This document shows positions 23,290 through 37,299 of a stretch of DNA of 44,440 nt, piece after piece. The DNA comes from an uncultured bacterium (GTDB lineage: Bacteria > Cyanobacteriota > Vampirovibrionia > Gastranaerophilales > Gastranaerophilaceae). Numbering within the stretch: the first letter of the stretch is position 1; the number at the start of each line of letters is the position of its first letter. The stretch is taken from positions 1-44,440 of the forward strand of contig CACXDL010000022.1 in NCBI GenBank assembly GCA_902766395.1, written 5' to 3'. The notes below the pieces were generated by a model. That model saw only the letters and a list, made by a program, of their open reading frames with translations. It did not search any database and had not been told where the DNA came from. A program made the translations under genes and the position numbers.

Positions 23290-25059
23290 ATGAAAAAATT
23301 TACATTTGTAAAAGTATTGTTATTAGTGTCAGTGTTGGTATCTTTCTTTTGTTATTGGTATCTAAATCATACTGTAACTTTTATGTATGTTAATCCATAT
23401 ACTGAAACTGCCGGAATGAAAGATATTTCCAAAACTATATATGAATTAGATAAAATGTTAAATGGTGCTCGTCAAATAGCCAGTTCTGCCGGTTATAAGT
23501 TTGATTATGTCTATACAAATGGGTATGGAAGCGGTTTTTTGAAAAATAATCCAATACCAAATGATTTAGATTATGAAATCCTTATTGACCTTGGAACTTT
23601 TGATTATTCCGATGATAAAACAAAGGATGATATAGCTGATGAAATTGTTAGTAAAATGGATGCTTTTCAATATTCGTTAGTTACTTATATAGAGATGAAT
23701 GAGGATAAAAATTTTTATTCAATACATTCTGCTGTAGGTTGTTTAAATAGTTTAAATCAGAAACATAATAAGTTTAAAGAAGAAATATCCTCTTCGTTGG
23801 ATGATGCTATATCAAATAAGAAATATGTTAATCACTTGACAAAGATATCATCAAGAGATGGTACACTTCGCTATTATATGCCATATGTTCTCGAACCTGG
23901 CAAAATGCTATTAAAAGATTATCCTTTAATGATGTTTTATAGTGACATTATAAAATATAACGATAATATGTTAAAATATGAAAGAATTTTGTCTATAACA
24001 TTGAGTTTTTGTGCAAAAATCAGACATAAAGGCAAAATTTCCAATATTGAAATAAATTCAGAATTGGCATCTACCGGACCGTTGAATTTGGAATACAGGC
24101 TCTATGCTCCAAATGTATTTTTCCGTAGTTCAGCAATAAAGTATTTAAAGGATTTGTATTCATTAACTGATGGTGATAAATATGTTGAGCTATTGATGTA
24201 TTGTTTTGCGGATCATTTAAAAGTTGTTTATCCCGAAGATGCGTTTGAATTTAACCCTATTAAAATTTTTAAACGCACATTGCAATTAACAGATATGATT
24301 TATCCTGTACTTGAGCCTGAAGAAGCACAAGAAATATATGATTTTATCGGGGCAAATTTACAAAATAGAGATATACAGTTATTAAATGAGTATATAAATA
24401 TTGTAGATATTGTCGGACGTGTATTTAAATCCGGAAAATTATATGAGGATTTTTTGCGTGACGGAAAAATGAAAGTTCTGATTATTTCCTTGCGTGATGT
24501 TGTAAAAGAATTGAAAAGCCGTAATAATATTCCCGCAGAATATATGTCAATTCTCGAAGATTATGTAAAAACTGATATTGGTAAAATCCTCAGAATGAAG
24601 AATATAAAAGAAATTCAGGAAGAACAAAAATTTGTTCAAGACCGTAAGTTTAGGAAAATTATTACTCCTACTATTAGTAAGGCCGCATTGTCTGTGTCTT
24701 CTGATAGGAATAAAATGCAAAAAATAATTAATAGATTAAAGAATATTTATTTTGATTGCGGGTTTCATTACTTAAATCTTTATGTAAAAAATAAGGACAC
24801 TTTTATATTAGAAAAAAATGAATACACTTTGGGTATAAAGGATTTTCATGACTTTGCGCTTAAAAATGATCTTTCTACTGATATGAAATTTGAACTTGTT
24901 CCAAAAAGAAATATTCCTAGAGATTATACAATGTACAAGATTTGGGTAAGGTATAATACAACACCGGAGCAAGACAAGTATTATGCTAACTTGAAAAAAG
25001 TTCTTTTGAAGAATAAACAAAAATTTAAGATAAGAAAGAAAACTTACTTTGTAAATTAA
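23290..25059 (+). CDS. Membrane-anchored protein of unknown family, NTase-like signature
   Basis: A 589-residue protein that I cannot place in a named family. Residues 6-24 form one N-terminal membrane helix; the rest appears soluble, probably outside the membrane. Residues 78-101 (YTNGYGSGF ... NDLDYEILIDLG) contain G80-S81, ten residues, then D92-L93-D94-Y95, the spacing of the nucleotidyltransferase signature hG[GS]x(9-13)Dh[DE]h. A paralogue on the other strand at 28.6-30.4 kb keeps these residues and roughly the same length. Shared blocks continue to the C terminus (for example KRTLQLTDMIYPVL and NLQNRDIQLLNE). The two genes flank a flippase and three pilins. Catalysis is inferred from a short motif only. 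Confidence 0.75.
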   Translation: MKKFTFVKVLLLVSVLVSFFCYWYLNHTVTFMYVNPYTETAGMKDISKTIYELDKMLNGARQIASSAGYKFDYVYTNGYGSGFLKNNPIPNDLDYEILIDLGTFDYSDDKTKDDIADEIVSKMDAFQYSLVTYIEMNEDKNFYSIHSAVGCLNSLNQKHNKFKEEISSSLDDAISNKKYVNHLTKISSRDGTLRYYMPYVLEPGKMLLKDYPLMMFYSDIIKYNDNMLKYERILSITLSFCAKIRHKGKISNIEINSELASTGPLNLEYRLYAPNVFFRSSAIKYLKDLYSLTDGDKYVELLMYCFADHLKVVYPEDAFEFNPIKIFKRTLQLTDMIYPVLEPEEAQEIYDFIGANLQNRDIQLLNEYINIVDIVGRVFKSGKLYEDFLRDGKMKVLIISLRDVVKELKSRNNIPAEYMSILEDYVKTDIGKILRMKNIKEIQEEQKFVQDRKFRKIITPTISKAALSVSSDRNKMQKIINRLKNIYFDCGFHYLNLYVKNKDTFILEKNEYTLGIKDFHDFALKNDLSTDMKFELVPKRNIPRDYTMYKIWVRYNTTPEQDKYYANLKKVLLKNKQKFKIRKKTYFVN

Positions 25060-25064
25060 AATAT

Positions 25065-26507
25065 CTATGTTTTAAGTATATAATTTCTAAACAAATAGCA
25101 AATAAAATAATATATTGTGGCAAATAAAATAATTTTTGTTATATTTATTCCTGCACTCAGTACTGTTGTTTTGAATATAAATATAAAAGGTGCAATTATA
25201 ATAGCATACGTAAAAATTCCAATTAGTGAAATGATGACAATTGATTTGATAATGCTAAAATAATTTAAAAACTCGAAGTTTTCAATTTTAATAAAAGTAT
25301 TAAATATTAACAAAAATAATTCAGATATAAAAAATGCCAAACCTGCGCCAAACAATGAGAACCTTTGCATTAATATAATATTTGCTGCAACCAAAAGAGA
25401 TAAAGAACAAAGAGCAATAATCATTTCTATGTTGGTTTTGTTTTTCAAATGGAATTTGGTATTTACGAGTTTTATAAGTTCATGTATAAAAAGAGAAAAT
25501 GCAAACAGAGGTAATATAACGCTTCCGACAAGATATTCTTTAGGAAAAAATAAGCTTGTGATTTCTTTATGGAAGTATAAAAAAGTCATAACTATCGGCA
25601 ATATACAAACTGAATAAAGTTGTATAATACTTGTCCAGTACTTTTTAATAGGAATATTGTGTTCATATTTATGCACTAATTCCGGAAAACCCGCAAACAT
25701 AAAAACTGATGCAAAAGGCTGTAAAATATTATAGGTGAAAAGATGAAAGAATCCTATTATTGCAGTATATAAAAATATGGATTTATATTGAAAATATAGT
25801 TTTGAAAAATGCATAATTACCCAGTAGCATATATTTGTTATTACAAGAGGAGATGCGTATTGTATAATTTCTTTGGTAATCTTAATATCAAATTTAAATC
25901 TCGGCTTAATGTCAAAATCAATATAATTAAGTATATACATATCAATTATAAACATAGCTATATTCATAGAAATTAGTATTGAATTTGCATTTGGAACATG
26001 TTTAACTAATATCAAAAAAATCAATATATTTAAAATCTGATAAAATAAAATGCTAACGGTATATAAAAAACTTTTATCCTTTACTCTTAAATATTGAAAT
26101 AAAAGTTGTCTTATTCCGCTAGGTATAACCAAACATGCGGAAAGAATAATTGTTAAAAAATCTACTCCCAGATATAATTGCAGAAGATTTGAACAAGAGA
26201 AGTATATGAGCATAACAATTATTTGGGTAAATATAGAAAAGCTGAGAATGTTGGAATAAAAATCTTCAATTCTATTTTGTATGTTAAATTTTTCATGAAA
26301 TCTCAATATAGACTTTGTTATCCAGTCAGAAGATACTGTGCACATAATATTCAAAAATTGTATTGCGATAAAATAAATACTCATTTCCTTAACTTCTAAC
26401 AGATGTGCATAGAGTGGGACAATAATCAAAGTATTTATTCCAACAAGCAATTTTGATGGGATATAACTGGCTGTATGTTTAAGAATATGTATATGGTTTT
26501 TACTCAT
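25065..26507 (-). CDS. Oligosaccharide flippase (Wzx/MATE-like)
   Basis: A 480-residue protein with about 12-14 hydrophobic helices and few charged residues. The N terminus (HTASYIPSKLLVGINTLIIVPLYAHLL) matches the start of polysaccharide-biosynthesis flippases, which move undecaprenyl-linked oligosaccharides across the inner membrane. A TTGGAGA ribosome site precedes the ATG. It ends five bases from the stop of the convergent 589-residue gene. No O-antigen polymerase or sugar-nucleotide genes lie near it, so its glycan cannot be named. Confidence 0.82.
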   Translation of the reverse strand: MSKNHIHILKHTASYIPSKLLVGINTLIIVPLYAHLLEVKEMSIYFIAIQFLNIMCTVSSDWITKSILRFHEKFNIQNRIEDFYSNILSFSIFTQIIVMLIYFSCSNLLQLYLGVDFLTIILSACLVIPSGIRQLLFQYLRVKDKSFLYTVSILFYQILNILIFLILVKHVPNANSILISMNIAMFIIDMYILNYIDFDIKPRFKFDIKITKEIIQYASPLVITNICYWVIMHFSKLYFQYKSIFLYTAIIGFFHLFTYNILQPFASVFMFAGFPELVHKYEHNIPIKKYWTSIIQLYSVCILPIVMTFLYFHKEITSLFFPKEYLVGSVILPLFAFSLFIHELIKLVNTKFHLKNKTNIEMIIALCSLSLLVAANIILMQRFSLFGAGLAFFISELFLLIFNTFIKIENFEFLNYFSIIKSIVIISLIGIFTYAIIIAPFIFIFKTTVLSAGINITKIILFATIYYFICYLFRNYILKT

Positions 26508-26543
26508 ACTATCTCCAAGATGATTATACCACAGATGAAAATA

Positions 26544-26572
26544 TTGAAAAATTAGCTAAGATATGTTATAAT
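26544..26572 (+). promoter_or_regulatory. Promoter of the tandem pilin genes
   Basis: TTGAAA (26544-26549) and TATAAT (26567-26572) with a 17-base spacer closely match the sigma-70 consensus. A GGAGG ribosome site and the first pilin ATG follow. Confidence 0.75.
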
Positions 26573-26598
26573 AGTAATACACCAATTGGAGGATTATT

Positions 26599-27147
26599 AT
26601 GCAACATCAGAGAGGTTTTACTTTAGCAGAAGTTTTGATAACTATGGGTATAATAGGAGTCGTTGCGGCTTTGACTATTCCTTCTTTATCTACTGCATAT
26701 CAAAAAAGAGTTATGACTACACAGTTGCAAAAGGCTTATGCAGAAATATCTCAAGCCGCAGGAATGGTTGTCGCAGATGAGATGACTAACGATTTTCGCA
26801 CTTCTCGTGCAGTAAGAAATAATCGTTTTATAGATAAATATTTAACCGGTTCATATACATATATAAGCGGACCATATGAGTATGTCGATGGCGGCGGTGG
26901 TTTTTATCTTCAAAATGAACTTGGAGATAATTATCAATGCAAGCAAACAAAAGCCGGGGCGGTTTTTTGTATGGCAAATGGACAAAGTCACGGATTTCTC
27001 GATGTAAATGGCGCAAAAGGGCCAAATTCAATAGGAAGAGATGCTTTTTCTATTGGATTTAATAAATCAGGAAGTATAGATCCTGATTACAGTGTGTTTC
27101 TTAGAAGAATAGTAAAAGAGGATTGGGATTTAGATGCGGCTCATTAA
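26599..27147 (+). CDS. Pilin-like protein 1 of tandem set
   Basis: A 182-residue prepilin. The leader MQHQRG is followed by FTLAEVLITMGIIGVVAAL with Glu5 of the mature chain, so it should be cleaved and N-methylated by prepilin peptidase. The hydrophobic helix continues into TIPSLSTAYQKRVMTTQLQKAYAE, the amphipathic half of the pilin stalk. The globular C-terminal part has two Cys (CKQTKAGAVFC) and ends LRRIVKEDWDLDAAH. A strong promoter and GGAGG ribosome site sit upstream. It shares almost identical DNA with the next gene for about 140 bases at the 5' end, while their C-terminal halves differ. It may form a pilus, a secretion pseudopilus or a DNA-uptake fibre. Confidence 0.87.
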   Translation: MQHQRGFTLAEVLITMGIIGVVAALTIPSLSTAYQKRVMTTQLQKAYAEISQAAGMVVADEMTNDFRTSRAVRNNRFIDKYLTGSYTYISGPYEYVDGGGGFYLQNELGDNYQCKQTKAGAVFCMANGQSHGFLDVNGAKGPNSIGRDAFSIGFNKSGSIDPDYSVFLRRIVKEDWDLDAAH

Positions 27148-27170
27148 TAATAAAAAAGGATACAATTAAT

Positions 27171-27713
27171 ATGAAAAAAGGTTTTACTTTAGCAGAAGTT
27201 ATGATAACGATGGGTATAATTGGCGTTGTTGCGGCTTTGACTATTCCTTCTTTATCTACTGCATATCAAAAAAGAGTTATGACAACTCAACTGCAAAAAG
27301 CGTATGCTGAATTGTCCCAAGCTGGTGCGATGGCTTTAGCTGAAGAGAATGGAGATAATTTTCGAAATTCTCAAATATTGCGGGATGGTGATTTTATTCG
27401 CAGATATGTAAATAAAAGTGGGTCACATTCTTTTGCCTCCTCATACGAAACTGATTTGGATGGTAATGAGTCGTTTTCACATATGATGGATTATTGCTCA
27501 AATTGCAGTTGCGGCAAAACAAAAGCCGGTGCTTCTGTGTGTGTTGGCTCTAACGGAGATGGGTATCTTGATATAAACGGTACTAAGGGCCCTAATAAGG
27601 AGGGTGTAGATCTGTTTATGATAGGGTTCGGAAGAGATGGTGCCATTGGAGATTATGACCATTATCTGCGAAAAATAATTCGTGCAGATTGGGATATAGA
27701 TGTTGCCCGTTGA
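27171..27713 (+). CDS. Pilin-like protein 2 of tandem set
   Basis: A 180-residue prepilin starting MKKGFTLAEVMITMGIIG, with cleavage expected after Gly4. The start at 27171 was chosen because it gives a normal short leader and has AAAAAGGA upstream; a longer in-frame version would add 16 residues overlapping gene 1. The C-terminal domain carries a Cys cluster (CSNCSCGKTKAGASVC) and ends HYLRKIIRADWDIDVAR. It follows gene 1 by 23 bases, likely in one operon. Confidence 0.87.
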   Translation: MKKGFTLAEVMITMGIIGVVAALTIPSLSTAYQKRVMTTQLQKAYAELSQAGAMALAEENGDNFRNSQILRDGDFIRRYVNKSGSHSFASSYETDLDGNESFSHMMDYCSNCSCGKTKAGASVCVGSNGDGYLDINGTKGPNKEGVDLFMIGFGRDGAIGDYDHYLRKIIRADWDIDVAR

Positions 27714-27733
27714 CAATATGGGGGTAAAGCATT

Positions 27734-28285
27734 ATGAAAAAGGGTTTTACTTTAGCTGAGGTTTTGATAACAATAGGTGTTATTGGTGTTATTGCCATGC
27801 TAACAATGCCTGTACTGACAGATAATTATAAAAAACGAGTTTTGACAACTCAACTGCAAAAAGCTCACGCAGAATTATCGCAGGCCGGAACTACGGCTTT
27901 AGCAGCGGAAATGAGTGATGATTTTCGTAAATTAAAAGTTTTGAAAAACGGAACTTTTGTGGAAAAATTTGTAAAAGGTACCGGTTCTGTATCTTTTGCA
28001 AATTCATATGTTAGATATGATTGCCCTGATTGTGGCACTATTAATACATCTCAGCTTTTTAGAGGCTATAATTATTATTGTAAAAAATTGAGTATGGGGG
28101 CATCATTTTGTGTTAATAAAAATGGGGATGGGTTTTTAGATGTCAATAGTACAAAATTACCTAATATGCTTGGACGCGATATGTTCATGATAGGTTTTGG
28201 AAAAGATGGTACTATTGGTGATTATGATCACTATTTAAGGAGTGTAATTCGTGCAAATTGGGATCTTGATGCTTCTCATCGTTAA
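27734..28285 (+). CDS. Pilin-like protein 3 of tandem set
   Basis: A 183-residue prepilin starting MKKGFTLAEVLITIGVIGVIAML. The stalk segment is more diverged than in genes 1 and 2 (TMPVLTDNYKKRVLTTQLQK), but the C-terminal domain follows the same plan: CPDCGTINTSQL, GASFCVNKNGDGFLDVNS and a final HYLRSVIRANWDLDASHR. It lies 20 bases after gene 2. An intergenic region with palindromic repeats follows. Conserved C-terminal Cys pairs probably form disulfides, which suggests an exported structure. Confidence 0.87.
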   Translation: MKKGFTLAEVLITIGVIGVIAMLTMPVLTDNYKKRVLTTQLQKAHAELSQAGTTALAAEMSDDFRKLKVLKNGTFVEKFVKGTGSVSFANSYVRYDCPDCGTINTSQLFRGYNYYCKKLSMGASFCVNKNGDGFLDVNSTKLPNMLGRDMFMIGFGKDGTIGDYDHYLRSVIRANWDLDASHR

Positions 28286-28346
28286 ATAATAAAATAATGT
28301 AATTAAATAGAACTTATCACTAATATGCATTGAAAATCAGCTGTAT

Positions 28347-28517
28347 TGTCATTCTGAACTTGTTTTCAGCATCTTAAAAATTTAGATCCTGAAATAAATT
28401 CAGGATGACAATTGACAATAAATTTAGGATGACAGAAAAGAGTGTCATGTTGAACTTGTTTCAGAATTTATCAATTCAGTCAAAATAAATAGGCCCTGAA
28501 ACCAGTTTAGGGTGCCA
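28347..28517. repeat. REP-like palindromic repeats
   Basis: The 336-base gap between the third pilin and the next gene (28286-28621) contains two imperfect palindromes of the TGTCATyCTGAAC-loop-GATCCTGAA...GGATGACA type: 28347-28410 and 28443-28517. Elements of this shape are scattered through many bacterial genomes and are usually mobilised by RAYT-type transposases or are relics. A loose third half-copy (TTTAGGATGACA) lies near 28423-28434. No gene is seen in this stretch. Confidence 0.65.
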
Positions 28518-28621
28518 TTTCTCTCTATTTTTTGTGGTAACTTATATATAATTCCCTAAAATAAAACCTAAATAAAAAATGAAGAATATTATAGATATAT
28601 TTAGATACGGCCTAATTATAT

Positions 28622-30370
28622 TTATTTGAAAATAACAAATTTCAATTTGGTATTGAAGTTTACTTTATCGTCCAGCAAAGCTTTTTCAAAAATTTTATAT
28701 TCTGGAGTTTTTACTCCATATATTACGCTTGTGTTATATGAAATACCTTTGTCTGGTAATTTTTGAGCTTCTTTAGATGTGACAAATTTTATTTTATTAA
28801 TCATCTCTTCAGGAAAATAATTATCAGAGATAAAAGATTTTAGATCCGTAATATTTTTTGTAAAATCATCTTTTATTATTGCCATCTTATCTTTGTCATA
28901 CCATATAATTTTAACTTTATGGTAACCTGCTTTGTAGTATATATTGCTAAATAAATTTGCAAAATATTGAATTCTTGAGGTGTCAACAATCTTATTCATT
29001 TCTCCAACAATAGTTTCAACTAATTTTTCATTCTTTTGTTTAAAATCGGTCGAAGAGAATTCTATGTTTTCAGAAATTAAAATGTTATCTTCCAAATATT
29101 TATTCATTGCTTTTAATTCAGAAATTGTTTTAGCATTTATATTATTTCTTTTTATTAATTCATTTGTCAGGTTTTCTGCTGTCTGAATCATTGTTTTGAT
29201 TTTTAAAGAGTGTTTTAACATTGAAAACAGTGCAGTATTTTTAGTTATGTTTTCGAGATTTCCATAAATATTCATTATTTCATTAAGAATTTGTACATCT
29301 CTGTTATTAAGATTTTCAAAAACAAATCTTTGGGCGTCATTATATTCTTTATCACTTAGCAGAGGATGTATCATTTCAGCAGTTTGCATGATTCGTTTTA
29401 ATATTTTTACCGGTGATTTTTTCATGCTCGAGAGGTTTTCTATTTCGTTAAGGTGTCTTATGAATGATAATTTTCTTGCGTATATATAATCTTGATCATT
29501 ATTCAGCCAATTTACATTTTTTATATATTTCAATGAATATAAGTTGTTAAATACTGTAGAACCGAAGCATCTTCTGGATAATTGCATTTTTGTTCCCCAA
29601 TGAACTTCAGGAACAAATTCAACATTTTTAGTAGTTTTAGCTGTTTTAATTTTGGCATAAAACTCTGGCATAACTGAAAGCTCCCTTAGGTAATGGGGCA
29701 TTTTATTGTTATATTCGATTGTATCTGAATATAAAATAAGTTGTTTAGAATTTTGTATTAAAATCTCATCAGAGTTCATTAAGTATGGCATCATGACATT
29801 TGTTATATTCTCTTCATTTTCGGGAATTGCTGTCAATTTCAGATATCGTTTGTTCTGGAGTACATTATTTAGATAATTTTCAATATCTGATATATGTTTG
29901 TTTCTGTAATCTGTATTGTGCCTAAGCATATCTAATGGGTTCACAGTGGAATAAAATCCGTTTTCATTTTCAGAAAAAATATTATTTGTAAAATAAAAAT
30001 AAAACAGGTCAATTTTATCCACAATTTTGGTTGCAATTTCTTTTGTGTTTTTTCCGTTGTATTTATATGTTCCTAAATCTATTCCAATAGAGTAGTCTAA
30101 ATCGTTAGGTATAGGATTGTTTCTTAAAAAGCCGCTGCCGTAAGGATTTGAATATAAATATTTTATATATTTCCCGTCCAGAAGTAGTGAAAATTTTGTA
30201 CTGTTAAGAACATTATCAATGTGGTATAGTGTTTTGCCTATATATGGAAAACCTTTTGTTTCAATATATGGATTTGAATAAATAAATGTCATACATGAAG
30301 TTTTGCAAAAAGTATACATATAAAACGTAAGAATAATTAAAATTAATCCCCATAAAATTTTTTTAATCAT
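28622..30370 (-). CDS. Membrane-anchored protein, paralogue of the 23.3-25.1 kb gene
   Basis: A 582-residue paralogue of the 589-residue protein. One N-terminal helix (residues 4-21) is followed by MTFIYSNPYIETKG, matching TFMYVNPYTETAG in its twin. G78-S79, ten residues, then D90-L91-D92-Y93 repeats the nucleotidyltransferase-like spacing, in SNPYGSGFLRNNPIPNDLDY. Further shared blocks: YSDTIEYNNKM, KILKRIMQTAEMIHPLL and NLNNRDVQILNE. It has an AGAGGTGG ribosome site. The family is unrecognised and may be specific to this lineage. Two diverged copies within 7 kb suggest a shared role, perhaps with the flippase and pilins between them, but function cannot be stated. Confidence 0.75.
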   Translation of the reverse strand: MIKKILWGLILIILTFYMYTFCKTSCMTFIYSNPYIETKGFPYIGKTLYHIDNVLNSTKFSLLLDGKYIKYLYSNPYGSGFLRNNPIPNDLDYSIGIDLGTYKYNGKNTKEIATKIVDKIDLFYFYFTNNIFSENENGFYSTVNPLDMLRHNTDYRNKHISDIENYLNNVLQNKRYLKLTAIPENEENITNVMMPYLMNSDEILIQNSKQLILYSDTIEYNNKMPHYLRELSVMPEFYAKIKTAKTTKNVEFVPEVHWGTKMQLSRRCFGSTVFNNLYSLKYIKNVNWLNNDQDYIYARKLSFIRHLNEIENLSSMKKSPVKILKRIMQTAEMIHPLLSDKEYNDAQRFVFENLNNRDVQILNEIMNIYGNLENITKNTALFSMLKHSLKIKTMIQTAENLTNELIKRNNINAKTISELKAMNKYLEDNILISENIEFSSTDFKQKNEKLVETIVGEMNKIVDTSRIQYFANLFSNIYYKAGYHKVKIIWYDKDKMAIIKDDFTKNITDLKSFISDNYFPEEMINKIKFVTSKEAQKLPDKGISYNTSVIYGVKTPEYKIFEKALLDDKVNFNTKLKFVIFK

Positions 30371-30557
30371 TAACCACCTCTTATGTAAATCATATTGTTA
30401 CAATATAACTATTTACATTATAAATAAAATATTATAGAATATACTTGTAATGTATTTGTTGTTACAAAAATATTACAATATATTATAACATAATATCCGT
30501 ATATATAATGCAATATTAATTTCTAATAAATTTAGAATAAATATATAAATCAAATGT

Positions 30558-30644
30558 AGAGAGGTGTCCGAGTGGCTTAAGGTGCAATCTTGGAAAGGTT
30601 GTGTGGGAGCAATTTCACCAGGGGTTCGAATCCCCTCCTCTCTG
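30558..30644 (+). tRNA. tRNA-Ser (anticodon GGA)
   Basis: The acceptor arms AGAGAGG (30558-30564) and CCTCTCT (30637-30643) pair fully and G is the discriminator. The anticodon GGA is at 30592-30594 in loop TTGGAAA. The long variable arm and T arm (AGGGGTTCGAATCCCCT) fit tRNA-Ser. No CCA is encoded. A run of six T follows as terminator. Confidence 0.95.
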
Positions 30645-30652
30645 TTTTTTAA

Positions 30653-31630
30653 TTAATTATTGTAAAATTTTCTGATAATTATTGGGAATCCAAATGTCAG
30701 ATATGCTGCAACTGTAAACATTGCAATATATGTCAGATAATAATTGTGTGTACCTGCAAAAAAGAATTCCCCAACAGTTTTAAACAGTAAAATTAATATT
30801 ATAGTTCCGATAATTCCGATATTTATTCGAGCTTTTAAAGTACCGTTTTTAGGATTATACGGAGTTAAGTTTTTACAAGCTACTGCTCCATTGATCATTC
30901 CCATAATCCATCCAAAATACATTATGGAAGAGTATACCGCATGTTGAGGATTTGCTATTCTTTTTCCATTAAAATAATCGATGCGATATTCCTTTGTAAG
31001 GATATAATACAGAGAAATCAAGCATATAATATTAAATATTGCTAAAAAATACGCATATCTCTTTTTGTCTTGATCGCACCATTTAATCAGATAAAATCCT
31101 CCTATAACAAATGCAAAACAGCAAATTAAACTAGTCAATACATCCTGAGGAGTGTGTACGCCGACATAGTTTCTTGAAAATCCAATGAGTATAGTAAAAA
31201 ATACTAATAAAGAGGCTAACAGTTTACGTTTTCTGAGCAGCACAGCAAGTCCCACCCAAGTAGTTGTTGCCATTGCCGTATGTCCGCTTGGGAAAGAGTA
31301 TCCTCCGGACATCTTTAAAGCTGATTCTACAGGTTTAATCTTATCACTTAAAATCCACGGACGATATATACATCCGACCATTTTCAAAAATTTTGCGATG
31401 TATAATCCAAGTCCTTGAACCGTAAACAGGTAAAATCCGGCTTCAAAATCAATGCACCAATATATTATGCAAATAACAATTGTAGGAATTGCAAGTTCTC
31501 CAAAAGCAGTTATATGCAGGAAAAGGTTATCAAAAGCACCTCCGGTTGATAGCCTGATATTTTGTAAACATACAAGATAATCAATTTGTGGGTTTAACCA
31601 CCAATCTGCAGTCAGCCATTCGTTAATCAT
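30653..31630 (-). CDS. PAP2-family membrane phosphatase
   Basis: A 325-residue integral membrane phosphatase with the full type-2 phosphatidic acid phosphatase signature: K83-x6-R90-P91, PSGH at 114-117 and S152-R153-x5-H159-x3-D163. It removes phosphate from lipid substrates such as phosphatidic acid or undecaprenyl diphosphate. It has more hydrophobic helices after the active site than the compact 200-residue enzymes, so it may be a broader phospholipid phosphatase. An AGAGGA ribosome site precedes the ATG. It lies between two tRNA-Ser genes on the opposite strand. Confidence 0.88.
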   Translation of the reverse strand: MINEWLTADWWLNPQIDYLVCLQNIRLSTGGAFDNLFLHITAFGELAIPTIVICIIYWCIDFEAGFYLFTVQGLGLYIAKFLKMVGCIYRPWILSDKIKPVESALKMSGGYSFPSGHTAMATTTWVGLAVLLRKRKLLASLLVFFTILIGFSRNYVGVHTPQDVLTSLICCFAFVIGGFYLIKWCDQDKKRYAYFLAIFNIICLISLYYILTKEYRIDYFNGKRIANPQHAVYSSIMYFGWIMGMINGAVACKNLTPYNPKNGTLKARINIGIIGTIILILLFKTVGEFFFAGTHNYYLTYIAMFTVAAYLTFGFPIIIRKFYNN

Positions 31631-31724
31631 AAAGTCCTCTTCTGTTATTTATATTTTGTTATAATATTACAAAATTGGTTTTATAAAAATTGTAAAAAAA
31701 CAATTGTTGTAATAAAATGATAGA

Positions 31725-31811
31725 GGAGAGATGTCCGAGTGGTTTAAGGTGACGATCTCGAAAGTCGTTGTGGGGGCAACTTCACCAGGGGTTCAAATCC
31801 CCTTCTCTCCG
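31725..31811 (+). tRNA. tRNA-Ser (anticodon CGA)
   Basis: The acceptor arms GGAGAGA (31725-31731) and TCTCTCC (31804-31810) pair fully, with G as discriminator. The anticodon CGA is at 31759-31761. A long variable arm and T arm AGGGGTTCAAATCCCCT are present. No CCA is encoded; TTTTTT follows. Confidence 0.95.
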
Positions 31812-31824
31812 TTTTTTAATCTTG

Positions 31825-32514
31825 TTACTTGTCGTATTTTGAATAGTATTTAGATCCGGAAGTCAGACCATATCTGGATTCTGTTTTGTCACCCTTTGAA
31901 TGATATCTGGATGTTTTTTGTAACCCATATTTTGAGTCTTGTTTATATTGTGAGTTTGTTCCGTATTTTTTCTGGTTGTATTTAGAATCGTAATTTTTAG
32001 CTTTTGATAGTCCGTATTTAGACTTATCTTTATTTGCTTCATCTTCAGGGAGCCCATATTTAGTTTCTTCATTCTTAGAACCAAATTTTGAACCTTCCAT
32101 TAAACCATATTTGGTCTTTTCAGGGTTTGTTTTATCATGAAATTTTGAACTTTGTGGTAAGCCATATTTTGTAACTTCTTGATTTTTTGATTCGAATTTC
32201 GAGCCCTTTATTAAACCATATTTTGTCCTTGGGGTATGTTCCTCAGTTTTAATTTTTTCTGATTCTGTCAGAGGTTTTTCAGGTTGTGCATTTGGGGTTG
32301 GTTGAGGTTTTGTACTTATATTTTTTTCAGGTTCTTTATTTTGTGTAGTATCTTCGTCAGATGTTGTAATATCAGAAGAATTATTCAACATTTCTTCTTG
32401 CTTGTTAATCTGCGAAAAATCAACAGCAGGATATTCATCGTTTGCATTTGTAGGTATTGAGCCTATGCTACAGAATAGTATAAACAAAGAAAGTGATAAC
32501 AAAATATTTTTCAT
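31825..32514 (-). CDS. Secreted protein with KYGL tandem repeats
   Basis: A 229-residue protein with a signal peptide (residues 1 to about 24, MKNILLSLSLFILFCSIG...TNA) and a disordered, Thr/Pro/Glu-rich segment to residue 95. The C-terminal 130 residues contain eight copies of a unit starting K/R-Y-G-L/T at residues 98, 116, 135, 152, 166, 183, 195 and 213, spaced 12-19 apart. Many units continue ...GSKFxSK or SKYYSK. I do not recognise the family. The repeat is rich in Lys, Tyr and Ser and strongly basic, so it could bind acidic glycans or DNA or act as a cell-surface linker. The ribosome site is AGAGGAT. Confidence 0.75.
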   Translation of the reverse strand: MKNILLSLSLFILFCSIGSIPTNANDEYPAVDFSQINKQEEMLNNSSDITTSDEDTTQNKEPEKNISTKPQPTPNAQPEKPLTESEKIKTEEHTPRTKYGLIKGSKFESKNQEVTKYGLPQSSKFHDKTNPEKTKYGLMEGSKFGSKNEETKYGLPEDEANKDKSKYGLSKAKNYDSKYNQKKYGTNSQYKQDSKYGLQKTSRYHSKGDKTESRYGLTSGSKYYSKYDK

Positions 32515-32578
32515 CTATAAATCCTCTTTTTCCATATATATTACATTATAATACATTTTTGATAATTTTTAAATGCAT

Positions 32579-32608
32579 AAAAAAAAGACCTTGTAAATTA
32601 CCAAGGCC
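32579..32608 (-). terminator. Probable terminator of the TIGR02757 gene
   Basis: On the minus strand GGCCTTGG ... CAAGGTC is followed by eight T residues. The stem has one mismatch. It lies 120 bases beyond the stop of the 245-residue gene. A second AT-rich hairpin (CTTTATATA/TATATAAAG type) lies between them. Confidence 0.6.
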
Positions 32609-32729
32609 TATCCGTTTAAATAAGAAGAGAGAGCTTTATATATTTATATAAAGTCTTCTGAATACAAAAAATTGCTAAAATAATATCAGCATGTTTACAT
32701 TTCTTAATATTATTTTAAAATAATCGTAT

Positions 32730-33467
32730 TTATTGATTTACACCGTAACCAAAAATAGCAAAATCATATTTGATTGGATCTTGCGGGCAAAATTCCTTTA
32801 ATTGTTTTGTAAGTTCAATAACAGCTTTAAAATCATTTGCATTTCTTTCTAATAAGCCAATTTGTCTTGAGATCCTTCCTACATGGACATCAAGTGGGAT
32901 ATATAATTCAGAAGCCGGCATAAAATTCCAGATTCCCAAATCAACAGGGGGCTTTCTAATCATCCAGCGCAAGAACATACACATTCGTTTCATTGCGCCT
33001 CCATTGTGCGGATTTGGAATCATATGGTAAAATCCTTGTCCTGCATTTTGATTTGCTTTAGAGTAAAAATAATCAACTACGGTTTCAAACATTTTGTTTT
33101 GTTTATAGCCGTATGAAAATAAATCTTCAAGACCTTCAGATGTATTGTATAGTTCTTTCAGAATATTAAAAATGCATATAAAATCATTTGGTTTCCCAAA
33201 TCTATAATTAAAATCCCCTATCAATCCGGGTTCAAAATTTTTTATAAAGTTAAGAGGTTCATTTTGTGCAATATTTGTGAATAATGAATCAAGTTTTTTT
33301 ATAAATTGTTTGCGACTTCCATATGCCAGCAATGAAGATATAAAAGCCGCAATTTCTATATCTTTCTTGTTTGAAAATCTGTGTGGTATTTGTATGGGAT
33401 CATCCTTTATAAAATCCGGAGTCTCATATTTTATTACTAATTTATCTAAATCTGCAACAGTAATCAT
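32730..33467 (-). CDS. TIGR02757 (DUF2400) family protein
   Basis: A 245-residue soluble protein of the conserved but uncharacterised TIGR02757 family. Diagnostic blocks are FISSLLAYGSRKQFIKKL (near residue 42), GGAMKRMCMFLRWMIRK with VDLGIWNF (near 160-180), IPLDVHVGRISRQIGLL (near 190) and DPIKYDFAIFGYGVNQ at the end. Sequence patterns resemble helix-hairpin-helix DNA-glycosylase-like folds, but function is not established. The ATG has no ribosome site and lies six bases after a TATAAT, so the mRNA is probably leaderless. It is divergent from the DUF4127 gene across a 57-base gap. Confidence 0.85.
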   Translation of the reverse strand: MITVADLDKLVIKYETPDFIKDDPIQIPHRFSNKKDIEIAAFISSLLAYGSRKQFIKKLDSLFTNIAQNEPLNFIKNFEPGLIGDFNYRFGKPNDFICIFNILKELYNTSEGLEDLFSYGYKQNKMFETVVDYFYSKANQNAGQGFYHMIPNPHNGGAMKRMCMFLRWMIRKPPVDLGIWNFMPASELYIPLDVHVGRISRQIGLLERNANDFKAVIELTKQLKEFCPQDPIKYDFAIFGYGVNQ

Positions 33468-33473
33468 ACTTGT

Positions 33474-33479
33474 ATTATA
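33474..33479 (-). promoter_or_regulatory. -10 box immediately before the TIGR02757 start
   Basis: On the minus strand this is TATAAT, six bases before the ATG at 33467. Transcription would start at or next to the A of the ATG. The -35 is not clear. Confidence 0.45.
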
Positions 33480-33488
33480 GTATAAAAA

Positions 33489-33517
33489 TTGCCCATAGTT
33501 CTAAAAATGGATATAAT
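33489..33517 (+). promoter_or_regulatory. Promoter of the DUF4127 gene, leaderless geometry
   Basis: TTGCCC (33489-33494) and TATAAT (33512-33517) are exactly 17 bases apart. The ATG at 33525 is seven bases beyond the -10, at the expected transcription start, with no ribosome site. Confidence 0.6.
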
Positions 33518-33524
33518 CTTGATT

Positions 33525-34853
33525 ATGAAGATTGCATTTTTACCAATAGATAACAGACCTGTTTGTTACACAATGCCCAAGATTATTGCGGGTATCGATA
33601 GTGATATTGAATTTTATATTCCTGAACGCAAATTTTTAGGTGGTTTAACTAAAACCGCTGACAAAAATGCTTTATTAGTTTGGTTGGAAAAATTACCAAA
33701 GGTTGATGCAATTGTTCTTTCCCTTGATACTTTGGTTTACGGCGGATTAATTCCGTCGCGCAGGGGAAGTGAAACATTAGGAGAATTAGAGGCTAAACTG
33801 GATAAAATAAAAGTAATATTAAAATCCAAAGAAGCCAAAATTTATGCTGTTTCCAGTATAATGCGTATTTCTAACAACAATTTTAATGAAGAGGAAAAAG
33901 ATTATTGGTCAGAATACGGGAAAAAAATATTTAAGTATTCTTACGAGTTACATAAAAATGGTGTTGCTGAAACTGATGTTCCAAAAGAAATAATAGAAGA
34001 TTATTTGTCAACAAGAAAGCGGAATTTTGAAATAAATAAAAGATATATAGAGTGGCAGAAGGAGGGAATTTTTGAAACTTTGGTTTTTTCAAAAGATGAT
34101 TGCGCCAGCTATGGTTTGAACGTACAAGAGGCAGAAGAACTCCAAAAACTTGGAGGTTTTACAAAAACTGGTGCTGATGAGATTCCTTTGAGTTTATTAT
34201 CAAGGGCAATAGATAAAAAGTTAAAAATTTGTCCGATTTATACTGAACCAACTTGTACAGATCTCATTTCAAATTATGAGGATGTTTCAATTTCAAAATC
34301 TGTTAATGGCCAAATTGAGCTTGCAGGTTGTGAGGTTTCAAATTATGAAGAAGCAGATTTGATATTGTATGTGAATAATTTTAAAGTTAATCAGGGTGAA
34401 ATTGTAATGAAGCAGACCACGGAGGCATTCTGTGGTGATTTTAAATTTCCGCAAAAGCCTTTTATGATTGCGGATGTTCGTTTTGCAAATGGTGCAGATA
34501 ACAATTTTGTAAATTCTATGTTTAAGAATGAATTAAATAATGATATATTTTATGGTTATAGTGCGTGGAATACTTCTGCAAATACTCTGGGGAGTTTGAT
34601 TTGCGGAGCAAAATTTAAATTTTGTGCTAAAAAATTTAACAAGTTAAATTTTGATAAATTACAAATTACGCGATTTCTTGACGATTGGGGATATCAGGCA
34701 AATGTGAGGCAGCAACTTTCTTCCCCTGATTCGAAAATTTCAAAACTGATGGAACCTTATGAAGAAAAATTAGAAATATTTTTAAATAAGAAAATTGATG
34801 TAAGATATTCTTTCCCTTGGAACAGGCTTTTCGAGGTAGAAGTATGGGTATAG
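33525..34853 (+). CDS. DUF4127 family protein
   Basis: A 442-residue protein of unknown function. It starts MKIAFLPIDNRPVCYTMP, the family hallmark, and carries LSLDTLVYGGLIPSRRG (near residue 77), ADVRFANGADNNFVN (near 315) and YSAWNTSANTLGSLI (near 345). Members are usually near 500 residues, so this is slightly short. A TTG twelve codons upstream is also in frame, but it would place the start inside the -35 box. The stop overlaps the start of the MntP-like gene by ten bases, so the two are translationally linked. Confidence 0.85.
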   Translation: MKIAFLPIDNRPVCYTMPKIIAGIDSDIEFYIPERKFLGGLTKTADKNALLVWLEKLPKVDAIVLSLDTLVYGGLIPSRRGSETLGELEAKLDKIKVILKSKEAKIYAVSSIMRISNNNFNEEEKDYWSEYGKKIFKYSYELHKNGVAETDVPKEIIEDYLSTRKRNFEINKRYIEWQKEGIFETLVFSKDDCASYGLNVQEAEELQKLGGFTKTGADEIPLSLLSRAIDKKLKICPIYTEPTCTDLISNYEDVSISKSVNGQIELAGCEVSNYEEADLILYVNNFKVNQGEIVMKQTTEAFCGDFKFPQKPFMIADVRFANGADNNFVNSMFKNELNNDIFYGYSAWNTSANTLGSLICGAKFKFCAKKFNKLNFDKLQITRFLDDWGYQANVRQQLSSPDSKISKLMEPYEEKLEIFLNKKIDVRYSFPWNRLFEVEVWV

Positions 34854-35386
34854 TTGAAATTATTATGCTTGGGGTTGCTTTAGGAGTAGATTGTTTTGTA
34901 GTTTCTTTTTCTCAGGGGTTAATATTTAGAAATAACAGAAGAATAAATTCTATAAAATTAGCTTTTACTATGGGGCTTTTTCAGGGATTAATGCCTGTTA
35001 TCGGTTATCTTGCAACTCTAAAAGTGTATGATATATTATTGCCGTACAGTAAATTTATTGTTTGTTTCATCTTTTTAATTTTGGGTATAAATTTTATACT
35101 TGAAGCTTTTCGTGATGAAAATGGGGATAAAATTCAATGTATTGATTTAAAATGTCTTTTGGGTCTTGGGGTTGCAACAAGTGTTGATGCTTTGATTTCC
35201 GGTACAACTATAAAACTTACCGATACAAACCTTTTTATATCCTGTCTGGTGATAGGAATTTTATCTTTTGTAATGTCTGAAGGTGGTTTTTGGCTTGGAA
35301 ATTTTATAAAAAAAATACAAACTCAAATATTGCAAATAACAGGTGGGATTATTCTGCTGATATTAGCTATAAAATCTTTAATTTAA
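34844..35386 (+). CDS. MntP-like manganese efflux pump
   Basis: A 180-residue membrane protein with six helices. The family repeats GVALGVDCFVVSFSQGL (near residue 11) and GVATSVDALISGTTIKL (near 105) each place an Asp in the membrane, as in MntP/YtaF, which export Mn2+. The start at 34844 has GAGG upstream; an earlier in-frame ATG would lie inside the DUF4127 gene without a ribosome site. The start overlaps the DUF4127 stop by ten bases. Its stop overlaps the stop of the convergent ABC ATPase gene. No Mn-responsive riboswitch is seen upstream. Confidence 0.83.
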   Translation: MGIVEIIMLGVALGVDCFVVSFSQGLIFRNNRRINSIKLAFTMGLFQGLMPVIGYLATLKVYDILLPYSKFIVCFIFLILGINFILEAFRDENGDKIQCIDLKCLLGLGVATSVDALISGTTIKLTDTNLFISCLVIGILSFVMSEGGFWLGNFIKKIQTQILQITGGIILLILAIKSLI

Positions 35387-36339
35387 ATTGTATTAAGAAA
35401 ACAAGCACTGTAATGATTTTCAGAAATTTCTAAAAGAGGGGGAACTTTTTGAGTGCATCTTTCTGTACAAAAATCACAACGGGGATTGAATTTACATCCG
35501 CTGATATTTTGCATTAGTGTTGGGGGTTGCCCTTTAATGGTTGCCAACCGTGATATTTTATCTGATGGAACGGATTTTAGCAGGGCTTTTGAATAAGGGT
35601 GGTTTGGGTTGGCAAAAAATTCAGCTGAATCTGTTTGTTCGATAATTCTGCCTGCGTACATAACAGCAATTTTGTCTGAGTTTTCATTTACAAGAGCTAA
35701 ATCGTGTGTGATAAGTAAAATCGCAGCATTATTATCTTTTTTAATTTGGTTTAAAAGATTCATTATTTGAGCCTGAATAGTAACGTCCAGTGCTGTGGTT
35801 GGTTCATCAGCAATAATAATTTCAGCGTTACAGGCTAATGCCATTGCAATAATAGCTCTTTGCTTCATTCCTCCGGAAAATTCATGAGGGTAATTTTTTA
35901 ATCTATCCTTTGCTGACGGTATCTGAACTGCATCAAATGCTTCTTCTGCCTTTTTTAGTGCTTCTTTCCCATGAAGGTTCTGATGAATTTTTATAACTTC
36001 CAGCAATTGGTCTCCGAGTGTGTATAGAGGATTTAACGAAGTCATAGGATCCTGCGGAATTAGTGCAATTTTTCCTCCTCTGATGTTTTGCATTTCTTGT
36101 TGTGTTTTATCAAGCAGATTTTCATTGTTATAAATGATTTGTCCGCTTGTTATTTTTGCAGTTTTGGGTAAGAGGTTTAAAATGCTCATTGCGCTCATTG
36201 TTTTTCCGCAGCCGGATTCACCCACAAGTGCAAGAGTTTTGCCTGCTTCAAGGTCAAATGTAACGTCAAATAATGCCTGTTTAAATCCTTCTTCGGTATT
36301 AAAACCCAAATTCAGATTTTTTACGGATAAAATGCTCAT
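35383..36339 (-). CDS. OppD/DppD-type ABC transporter ATPase
   Basis: A 318-residue ATPase of peptide/nickel importers. It has Walker A GESGCGKT, Q-loop IPQDPMTSLNP, signature FSGGMKQR, Walker B IIIADEPTTALD and the H-loop His in LLITHDLAL. The C-terminal extension with a Cys-rich GCKFNPRC...C...C motif and PLLEISENHYSACF is typical of OppD/DppD. No permease or binding-protein genes are adjacent, so its partners must be elsewhere. The ATG lies nine bases after a TATAAT with no ribosome site. The stop overlaps that of the convergent MntP-like gene, with no terminator between. Confidence 0.9.
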   Translation of the reverse strand: MSILSVKNLNLGFNTEEGFKQALFDVTFDLEAGKTLALVGESGCGKTMSAMSILNLLPKTAKITSGQIIYNNENLLDKTQQEMQNIRGGKIALIPQDPMTSLNPLYTLGDQLLEVIKIHQNLHGKEALKKAEEAFDAVQIPSAKDRLKNYPHEFSGGMKQRAIIAMALACNAEIIIADEPTTALDVTIQAQIMNLLNQIKKDNNAAILLITHDLALVNENSDKIAVMYAGRIIEQTDSAEFFANPNHPYSKALLKSVPSDKISRLATIKGQPPTLMQNISGCKFNPRCDFCTERCTQKVPPLLEISENHYSACFLNTI

Positions 36340-36348
36340 AGTATACTG

Positions 36349-36377
36349 ATTATATATTTTTTTAATTTTTAAGTAAA
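36349..36377 (-). promoter_or_regulatory. Promoter of the OppD-like gene
   Basis: On the minus strand TTTACT (36372-36377) and TATAAT (36349-36354) are 17 bases apart, and the ATG lies nine bases beyond the -10. The leader would be three bases or fewer. Confidence 0.5.
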
Positions 36378-36489
36378 TAGGTAATAAAGATGAAACTGTT
36401 TCATATTAAAATAATATAAAGGTTTCCTATAAAATTCGGTTTTGTAATATAATAAAGTAAGTTATTGTTATGTAAGAGAGGATATTTTG

Positions 36490-37299
36490 ATGATAGATAA
36501 GACAGCTATAATTGATCCATCGGCTCAAATCGCAGAAGATGCCATAATAGGTCCTTACGTTGTTATAGGGAAAAATGTAAAAATAGGCAGCGGAACGAGA
36601 GTTATTTCAAATGCGCATATTGAATATGCTGAAATTGGCAAAAATTGCACAATTTCGCCTTTTGCGACTATTGGTTCAGAACCGCAAGATTTAGGTTATA
36701 AAGGAGAAGAAACAAAAGTTATTATAGGTGATGAAACCATTATTAAAGAAAATGTTACTATCCACAGAGCAGCTGCTTGCGGCGATTTTACAACAAGAAT
36801 AGGTAATAAATGTTTAATTATGGTCGGAGCACATGTTGCTCACAACTGCGTATTAGAAGATCAGGTTATTTTAGCAAATTTAGTAACACTTGGCGGACAT
36901 GTTCATGTTGAATTCGGAGCTTTTGTCGGCGGCATGAGCGTATTCCATCAAAATATAAGAATTGGTACTATGTCTATTGTTAGTGGATTTTCTGCTTCAA
37001 GACAAGATATTTTACCATATTCAAAAGGTGAAGGACGTCCTCCTGTACCAAGAACTATTAACGTAATTGCTCTTAAACGCAGAGGAGTCGATTTAGAAAC
37101 AAGAACACATCTTAATGAAGCATTTAAACTTTTAATTTCTGAAGATTATAATACTTCTCAGGCAATTGAAAAAATTCACGCTGAAATCCCAACAAATGAA
37201 TATATTGAAAAAATGATTGATTTTATTCAAACCTCTAAACGTGGTGTTTTATTAAAATCTCACAAATCCGGTCATCAATCATTAGAAAGTGAAGAATAA
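36490..37299 (+). CDS. lpxA: UDP-N-acetylglucosamine acyltransferase
   Basis: LpxA makes the first committed intermediate of lipid A by moving an R-3-hydroxyacyl chain from acyl carrier protein to UDP-GlcNAc. The 269-residue protein is a left-handed beta helix built of hexapeptide repeats (IDPSAQIAEDAIIGPYVVIG and others). The catalytic His is in IMVGAHVAHNC and the C-terminal helical part follows RGVD. E. coli LpxA has 262 residues. AGAGAGG precedes the ATG; a TTG directly before is ignored. TATAAT at 36448-36453 may be its -10. The usual partners lpxD, fabZ and lpxB are not adjacent. This gene indicates a lipopolysaccharide outer membrane. Confidence 0.93.
   Translation: MIDKTAIIDPSAQIAEDAIIGPYVVIGKNVKIGSGTRVISNAHIEYAEIGKNCTISPFATIGSEPQDLGYKGEETKVIIGDETIIKENVTIHRAAACGDFTTRIGNKCLIMVGAHVAHNCVLEDQVILANLVTLGGHVHVEFGAFVGGMSVFHQNIRIGTMSIVSGFSASRQDILPYSKGEGRPPVPRTINVIALKRRGVDLETRTHLNEAFKLLISEDYNTSQAIEKIHAEIPTNEYIEKMIDFIQTSKRGVLLKSHKSGHQSLESEE

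Follow-up and report, generated by a model that had tools for sequence, protein, structure and literature searches.

Two genes in a 44,440-nucleotide stretch of DNA from an uncultured bacterium of the Gastranaerophilaceae (the whole stretch analysed, hereafter the window) encode the paralogous proteins NTL-A and NTL-B, and our findings strongly support their placement in a new, previously unnamed family of the nucleotidyltransferase (NTase) superfamily, to which they add an unannotated member family. Equally strong is the support for the pairing of NTL genes with one clade of MOP flippases, usually tail to tail. The cassette points to a hitherto unrecognised mode of bacterial surface decoration and opens a way into the study of how the Gastranaerophilaceae, gut bacteria that are related to cyanobacteria and for the most part uncultured, modify their surface.

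The two genes and the spread of the family

The original prediction described two paralogues on opposite strands about 7 kb apart, and this arrangement stands: both ORFs are intact, their start codons lie about 7 kb and their facing ends 3.6 kb apart, and the proteins share 31% identity. The features of the cassette are as follows.

23290..25059, + strand: NTL-A, membrane-anchored protein with predicted NTase fold; 589 aa, ATG start, intact ORF
23296..23367, + strand: NTL-A N-terminal transmembrane helix, residues 3-26, predicted N-in by the positive-inside rule (model and charge)
23527..23571, + strand: NTL-A GS-x10-D-L-D signature, G80-D94 (47-sequence alignment)
24049..24051, + strand: NTL-A candidate third carboxylate, E254 (E in 36/47, D in 1/47; alignment and model)
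24256..24297, + strand: NTL-A conserved basic helix P-x-K-x2-K-R-x2-Q, residues 323-336 (alignment and model)
25065..26507, - strand: FLIP, dedicated MOP-superfamily flippase, convergent with NTL-A (Pfam PF13440, co-occurrence)
26599..27147, + strand: pilin-like protein 1, with N-methyl motif and C-terminus ...EDWDLDAAH
27171..27713, + strand: pilin-like protein 2, C-terminus ...ADWDIDVAR
27734..28285, + strand: pilin-like protein 3, C-terminus ...ANWDLDASHR
28622..30370, - strand: NTL-B, paralogue of NTL-A; 582 aa, ATG start, intact ORF
30095..30139, - strand: NTL-B GS-x10-D-L-D signature, G78-D92
29618..29620, - strand: NTL-B candidate third carboxylate, E251

For pilin-like protein 2 the ORF list gives a TTG start at 27123, and the pilin-type start at 27171 is likelier. 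NTL-A and NTL-B are the sole family members found in the source genome assembly (completeness about 93%).

Neither protein scored above cut-off with any Pfam or NCBIfam model, and no meaningful match was obtained in PADLOC, PHROGs or PDB sequences; the earlier remark that the chains match no familiar family is thus borne out by these searches, which returned no named family. Profile searches of PDB sequences, including those of Mg662, gave no NTase match at E <= 10. The LicD model, describing proteins whose motif spacing presumably differs from that of NTL, matched neither NTL-A nor NTL-B and does not appear among the matches listed for 21 members. For the CD-NTase defence models there was no PADLOC match, and no conserved effector gene was seen beside NTL.

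While a single-sequence scan of genome contigs detected zero relatives, an alignment used as query against GTDB genome contigs detected 47 loci. Relatives occur in 24 of 386 genomes of the phylum and in 44 of 383 genomes of the order, and were found in the Gastranaerophilaceae only (gut Melainabacteria), the family to which the window itself belongs. Because just 3 of the 46 genomes of the window's own genus carry NTL, the distribution is patchy; the survey of copies across the lineage proposed with the original prediction therefore reveals a family that is present, scattered and confined to the Gastranaerophilaceae among the genomes searched. A phage origin was considered and rejected, no NTL relative having been found in viral contigs. 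One locus (L053, CAMZGT010000002.1) is titled uncultured Acinetobacter sp., yet shows synteny of the Gastranaerophilales type and is probably a mislabelled MAG.

In the family tree the window's A copy groups with L039 and L040 with full support, and its B copy lies on a long branch of unsure placement. A separate divergent clade (L075-L078, L080-L082 and L084) occurs in one genomic context, after the c14 gene. Most of its members lack the third acid, the adjoining flippase gene is often missing, split or full of stops (G431), and the clade possibly represents a decaying or repurposed cassette.

Signature motif, predicted fold and membrane topology

The signature reads GSGFLKNNPIPNDLD in NTL-A (G80-D94) and GSGFLRNNPIPNDLD in NTL-B (G78-D92), in keeping with the original prediction of G-S, ten residues and D-L-D near residues 80-95, and it is preceded, as had also been proposed, by an N-terminal membrane helix (the hydrophobic helix of residues 3-26 in the NTL-A model). 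Across the 47-sequence family alignment (NTL-A numbering), G80, S81 and D92 are kept in every sequence and D94 in 46. Conservation of this order rules out a chance motif and is the opposite of the unconserved motif that would have refuted the original prediction. The most conserved block of the family, YGSGF-x3-N-x4-D-h-D, contains the NTase signature hG[GS]-x(9-13)-Dh[DE]h, and of the 16 columns that are invariant over the full length of the protein, 7 fall within Y79-D92. The third carboxylate for which a search had been suggested was found in E254, on a predicted strand (249-259): column 254 holds E in 36 sequences and D in one (37/47 acidic), the remaining 10, most of them from the divergent clade, have S, T or N there, and both NTL-A and NTL-B retain the acid. 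Further invariant residues (P323, K328, Q332), together with K325 and R329 (46/47 each), all lie on one predicted helix; this putative phosphate-binding helix (323-336) is possibly where a phosphate group would be held. Substitutions are in excess at third codon positions in several pairs, two divergent-clade members among them (for L057 vs L064, changes at positions 1, 2 and 3 are 0.09, 0.05 and 0.28), which indicates that NTL proteins are under purifying selection.

An AlphaFold2 model of NTL-A built from the alignment reached a pLDDT of 91.1 and a pTM of 0.89. When the whole model was compared by VIA-align, the top match was 4xul, the Mg662 NTase with GTP (Z 13.1, rmsd 4.4, 275 residues, model residues 41-486), with two further Mg662 structures, 4ams and 4amq, at Z 11.4 and 11.3; most other high-ranking rows cover the helical stretch 353-471 alone. 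Foldseek found no strong match in the PDB, none having E < 0.06, and the search of BFVD pointed to two giant-virus proteins (E 3e-4 and 5e-4, probability 1.00), one of them annotated as a nucleotidyl transferase. The catalytic domain alone (residues 34-350, pLDDT 89.7) gave a list of NTase-fold proteins, each at a modest Z below 8 (5.8-6.9): OAS2 (6.9), cGAS (6.7), Mg662 (6.7), FAM46 (6.6) and Tam41 (5.8), besides poly(A) polymerases, Pol mu, Pol beta, CD-NTases and TUTases. FKRP and LicD structures are absent among the matches listed, both for the whole model and for the domain alone. As a separate observation, the C-terminal alpha/beta domain of NTL-A (residues 473-589; 24706-25056) is well predicted in the model.

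Despite the modest Z values, the assignment is convincing because the list is consistent and because the motif and the third acid are in place. An NTase core fold is thus strongly supported by the predicted structure, as opposed to the unrelated fold that would have spoken against the original prediction, and its reading of a membrane-anchored NTase-like family gains support, with the catalytic activity itself putative.

All 47 members have one hydrophobic segment near the N-terminus, with more positive charge on its N-terminal side, and in none of them is there a second segment of similar hydrophobicity, which points to a single transmembrane helix. By the positive-inside rule this N-in charge pattern places the catalytic domain outside the cytoplasm; we therefore predict, with charge as the one basis, that the domain faces the periplasm.

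Pairing with a flippase clade and the adjoining pilin genes

The flippase and pilin genes had been mentioned earlier as context only, and turn out to be a conserved association. FLIP itself matches Pfam PF13440 (23.9 bits vs a cut-off of 23), and PF01943 is matched by 15 of 20 relatives. The clade to which it belongs is separated by a score gap from background flippases (at least 310 bits vs at most 271). Among the 383 genomes of the order, 41 carry both NTL and this flippase clade, 3 NTL alone, 1 the flippase alone and 338 neither (Fisher p 2e-50, a test that ignores shared ancestry). The sole NTL-negative genome of the 42 with the flippase has it at a contig end, and the three genomes with NTL only are G099, G433 (in which NTL is broken) and G477 (in which NTL lies near a contig end). 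In three more (G243, G584, G594) both genes are present but apart. Convergent pairs number 34 in the loci and occur in about ten different flanking contexts, and in 30 of them the facing ends overlap by no more than 32 bp or are separated by no more than 11 bp.

A comparison with the corresponding site in another genome (G033, L111) was also made. There, the metallophosphatase and NDK genes of the left flank directly adjoin a 94%-identical homologue of the window gene at 36487-37299, and about 13 kb with the cassette (window 23290-36480) are absent, suggesting that the stretch around the cassette is variable.

A pilin-like gene comes next after the flippase in 24 of the 34 convergent pairs; in another context pilin-like genes precede NTL, and beside some pairs there are none (context c16, and c38 downstream). 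The window's genome has 16 matches to the pilin N-methyl model, three of them in the NTL cassette, and five to PF00437 (ATPases of the T4P/T2SS type), which makes pilus-type assembly plausible; a Wzy_C-type ligase/polymerase is encoded as well.

Cassette pilins mostly end in W/F-x-M/F-D-Y, the strict motif being found in 44 of 59, compared with none among 11 other pilins or among the 773 other proteins that the loci encode. The window's own three pilins end in a looser W-D-[LI]-D followed by a few residues. We considered W-x-M-D-Y as an NTL-specific recognition signal and rejected it, since an order-wide scan found the same ending on pilins of NTL-negative genomes. One genome (G578) has 28 matches to the pattern, and a reversed control pattern is nearly absent. 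In genus g18 the median number of matches is 4 in NTL-positive genomes vs 1 in the others (p = 0.012, uncorrected for shared ancestry). In our view the ending characterises a wider pilin subfamily and does not prove an NTL recognition signal.

A proposed reaction and its nearest precedents

NTPs, the classical donors of NTases, are not expected in the periplasm, and a donor therefore has to be assumed if NTL works there; its predicted location raises the question of what an NTase-fold enzyme would use instead. NTase-fold enzymes transfer phospho-groups from phospho-anhydride donors (PMC11646218), and on the periplasmic side a flipped lipid-diphosphate-linked sugar would be the obvious phospho-anhydride. 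The strict pairing with one flippase clade fits such a supply of donor, and its near-perfect co-occurrence with NTL makes the supply model directly testable. We tentatively propose, at somewhat less than even confidence, that NTL is a periplasm-facing NTase-fold transferase that uses a flippase-delivered lipid-diphosphate-linked donor to modify pilins or a surface glycan. NTL-A and NTL-B would be anchored in the inner membrane with their catalytic domain in the periplasm, and the dedicated MOP flippase would carry the lipid-diphosphate-linked donor to the outer leaflet. Catalysis would involve the two acids of D-h-D and E254, probably with a divalent metal, and would move a phospho-group or sugar-phosphate from the donor to an acceptor hydroxyl outside the cytoplasm, the acceptor most plausibly being the pilin-like proteins of neighbouring genes, or a surface glycan. 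That NTL is catalytically active, that its donor is lipid-linked and that pilins or a glycan act as acceptor are all inferences, as is the exact reaction. To our knowledge, neither a lipid-diphosphate-linked donor nor an extracytoplasmic location is known for NTase-fold enzymes in bacteria, and searching the literature for earlier examples of bacterial NTase-fold proteins in the periplasm brought up nothing relevant. The most specific version of the proposal, in which such a bacterial enzyme outside the cytoplasm transfers glycosyl-phosphate from the flipped donor to type IV pilin-like proteins, we consider quite unlikely.

The partnership with the flippase clade would support a cytoplasmic domain equally well. 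NTL might then decorate a lipid-linked precursor before its export, say by adding a phospho-group taken from an NTP or a CDP-activated donor, and NTP-type donors are available in the cytoplasm. LicD1 and LicD2 with TacF set the example, LicD adding phosphocholine from CDP-choline and the MOP flippase TacF checking for phosphocholine (PMC13385700). Keeping in mind that the N-in charge and the single helix of all 47 members put the domain outside, and that LicD is missing from the Pfam matches listed, we regard this alternative as somewhat unlikely.

Loss of the third acid in 10 of 47 members, mostly from the divergent clade with its often missing, split or broken flippase genes, speaks for a reading of NTL as an inactive or non-transferase NTase fold. 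It would bind a phosphorylated ligand and serve the flippase or the pilus as receptor, scaffold or regulator, much as MAB21-type NTase-fold proteins can bind nucleotide without being known to transfer it; MAB21L1, for one, binds CTP with no activity detected (PMC4897736). The full triad of the remaining 37 members, NTL-A and NTL-B included, and the invariance of G-S and the first D, a stronger conservation than a pure scaffold needs, make a non-transferase role decidedly unlikely. It is very improbable that the pair merely sits within an unrelated surface polysaccharide locus, with pilins as bystanders and NTL as a conventional nucleotide-using enzyme of the second-messenger or defence (CD-NTase) type: cGAS, OAS and CD-NTase structures are indeed among the structural matches, but the PADLOC result, the lack of a conserved effector gene alongside, the N-terminal anchor with its N-in charge and the consistent pairing with a MOP flippase all argue against it. 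That a different fold shares GS-x10-DLD by coincidence is scarcely credible, for although Foldseek E-values against the PDB are weak, the domain-only matches listed are NTase-fold proteins and the motif position, third acid and order of elements all agree with an NTase.

Returning to the preferred reading of a periplasm-facing transferase, we compared NTL with the systems closest to it. Mg662 (4xul, 4ams, 4amq) is the best whole-model match (Z 11.3-13.1); the alignment spans 264-275 residues and takes in the helical region that follows the core, but identity is 10-13%, and Mg662 is viral and NTL bacterial. Unlike Mg662, NTL adds an N-terminal transmembrane helix and a C-terminal alpha/beta domain that lies largely outside the aligned range. 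With NTases of the OAS/cGAS/CD-NTase and poly(A) polymerase-like types the core aligns over 115-193 residues at Z of about 6-7, with no sequence similarity detected. These enzymes polymerise or cyclise nucleotides, and we know of none that is paired with a flippase.

Another group is formed by LicD, itself an NTase (PMC11666461), FKRP and Mnn4, which have the NTase fold and carry out phospho-transfer onto glycans (PMC6965139, PMC5681524, PMC13385700). LicD is paired with TacF, its dedicated MOP flippase, in the case of pneumococcal teichoic acid, but there the enzyme acts on the cytoplasmic side (PMC13385700). For the transfer of phospho-groups by an NTase fold within a lumen, precedents exist in FKRP, which acts in the Golgi (PMC6965139, PMC11646218), and in LicD-domain Mnn4 proteins, which have an N-terminal transmembrane segment (PMC5681524). 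Finally, the CDP-DAG synthase Tam41 (7ecd) is a membrane-associated NTase-fold enzyme that matches the NTL domain weakly (Z 5.8) and keeps just one of the three acids (PMC11646218); NTL, by contrast, has a mostly complete triad and a transmembrane anchor.
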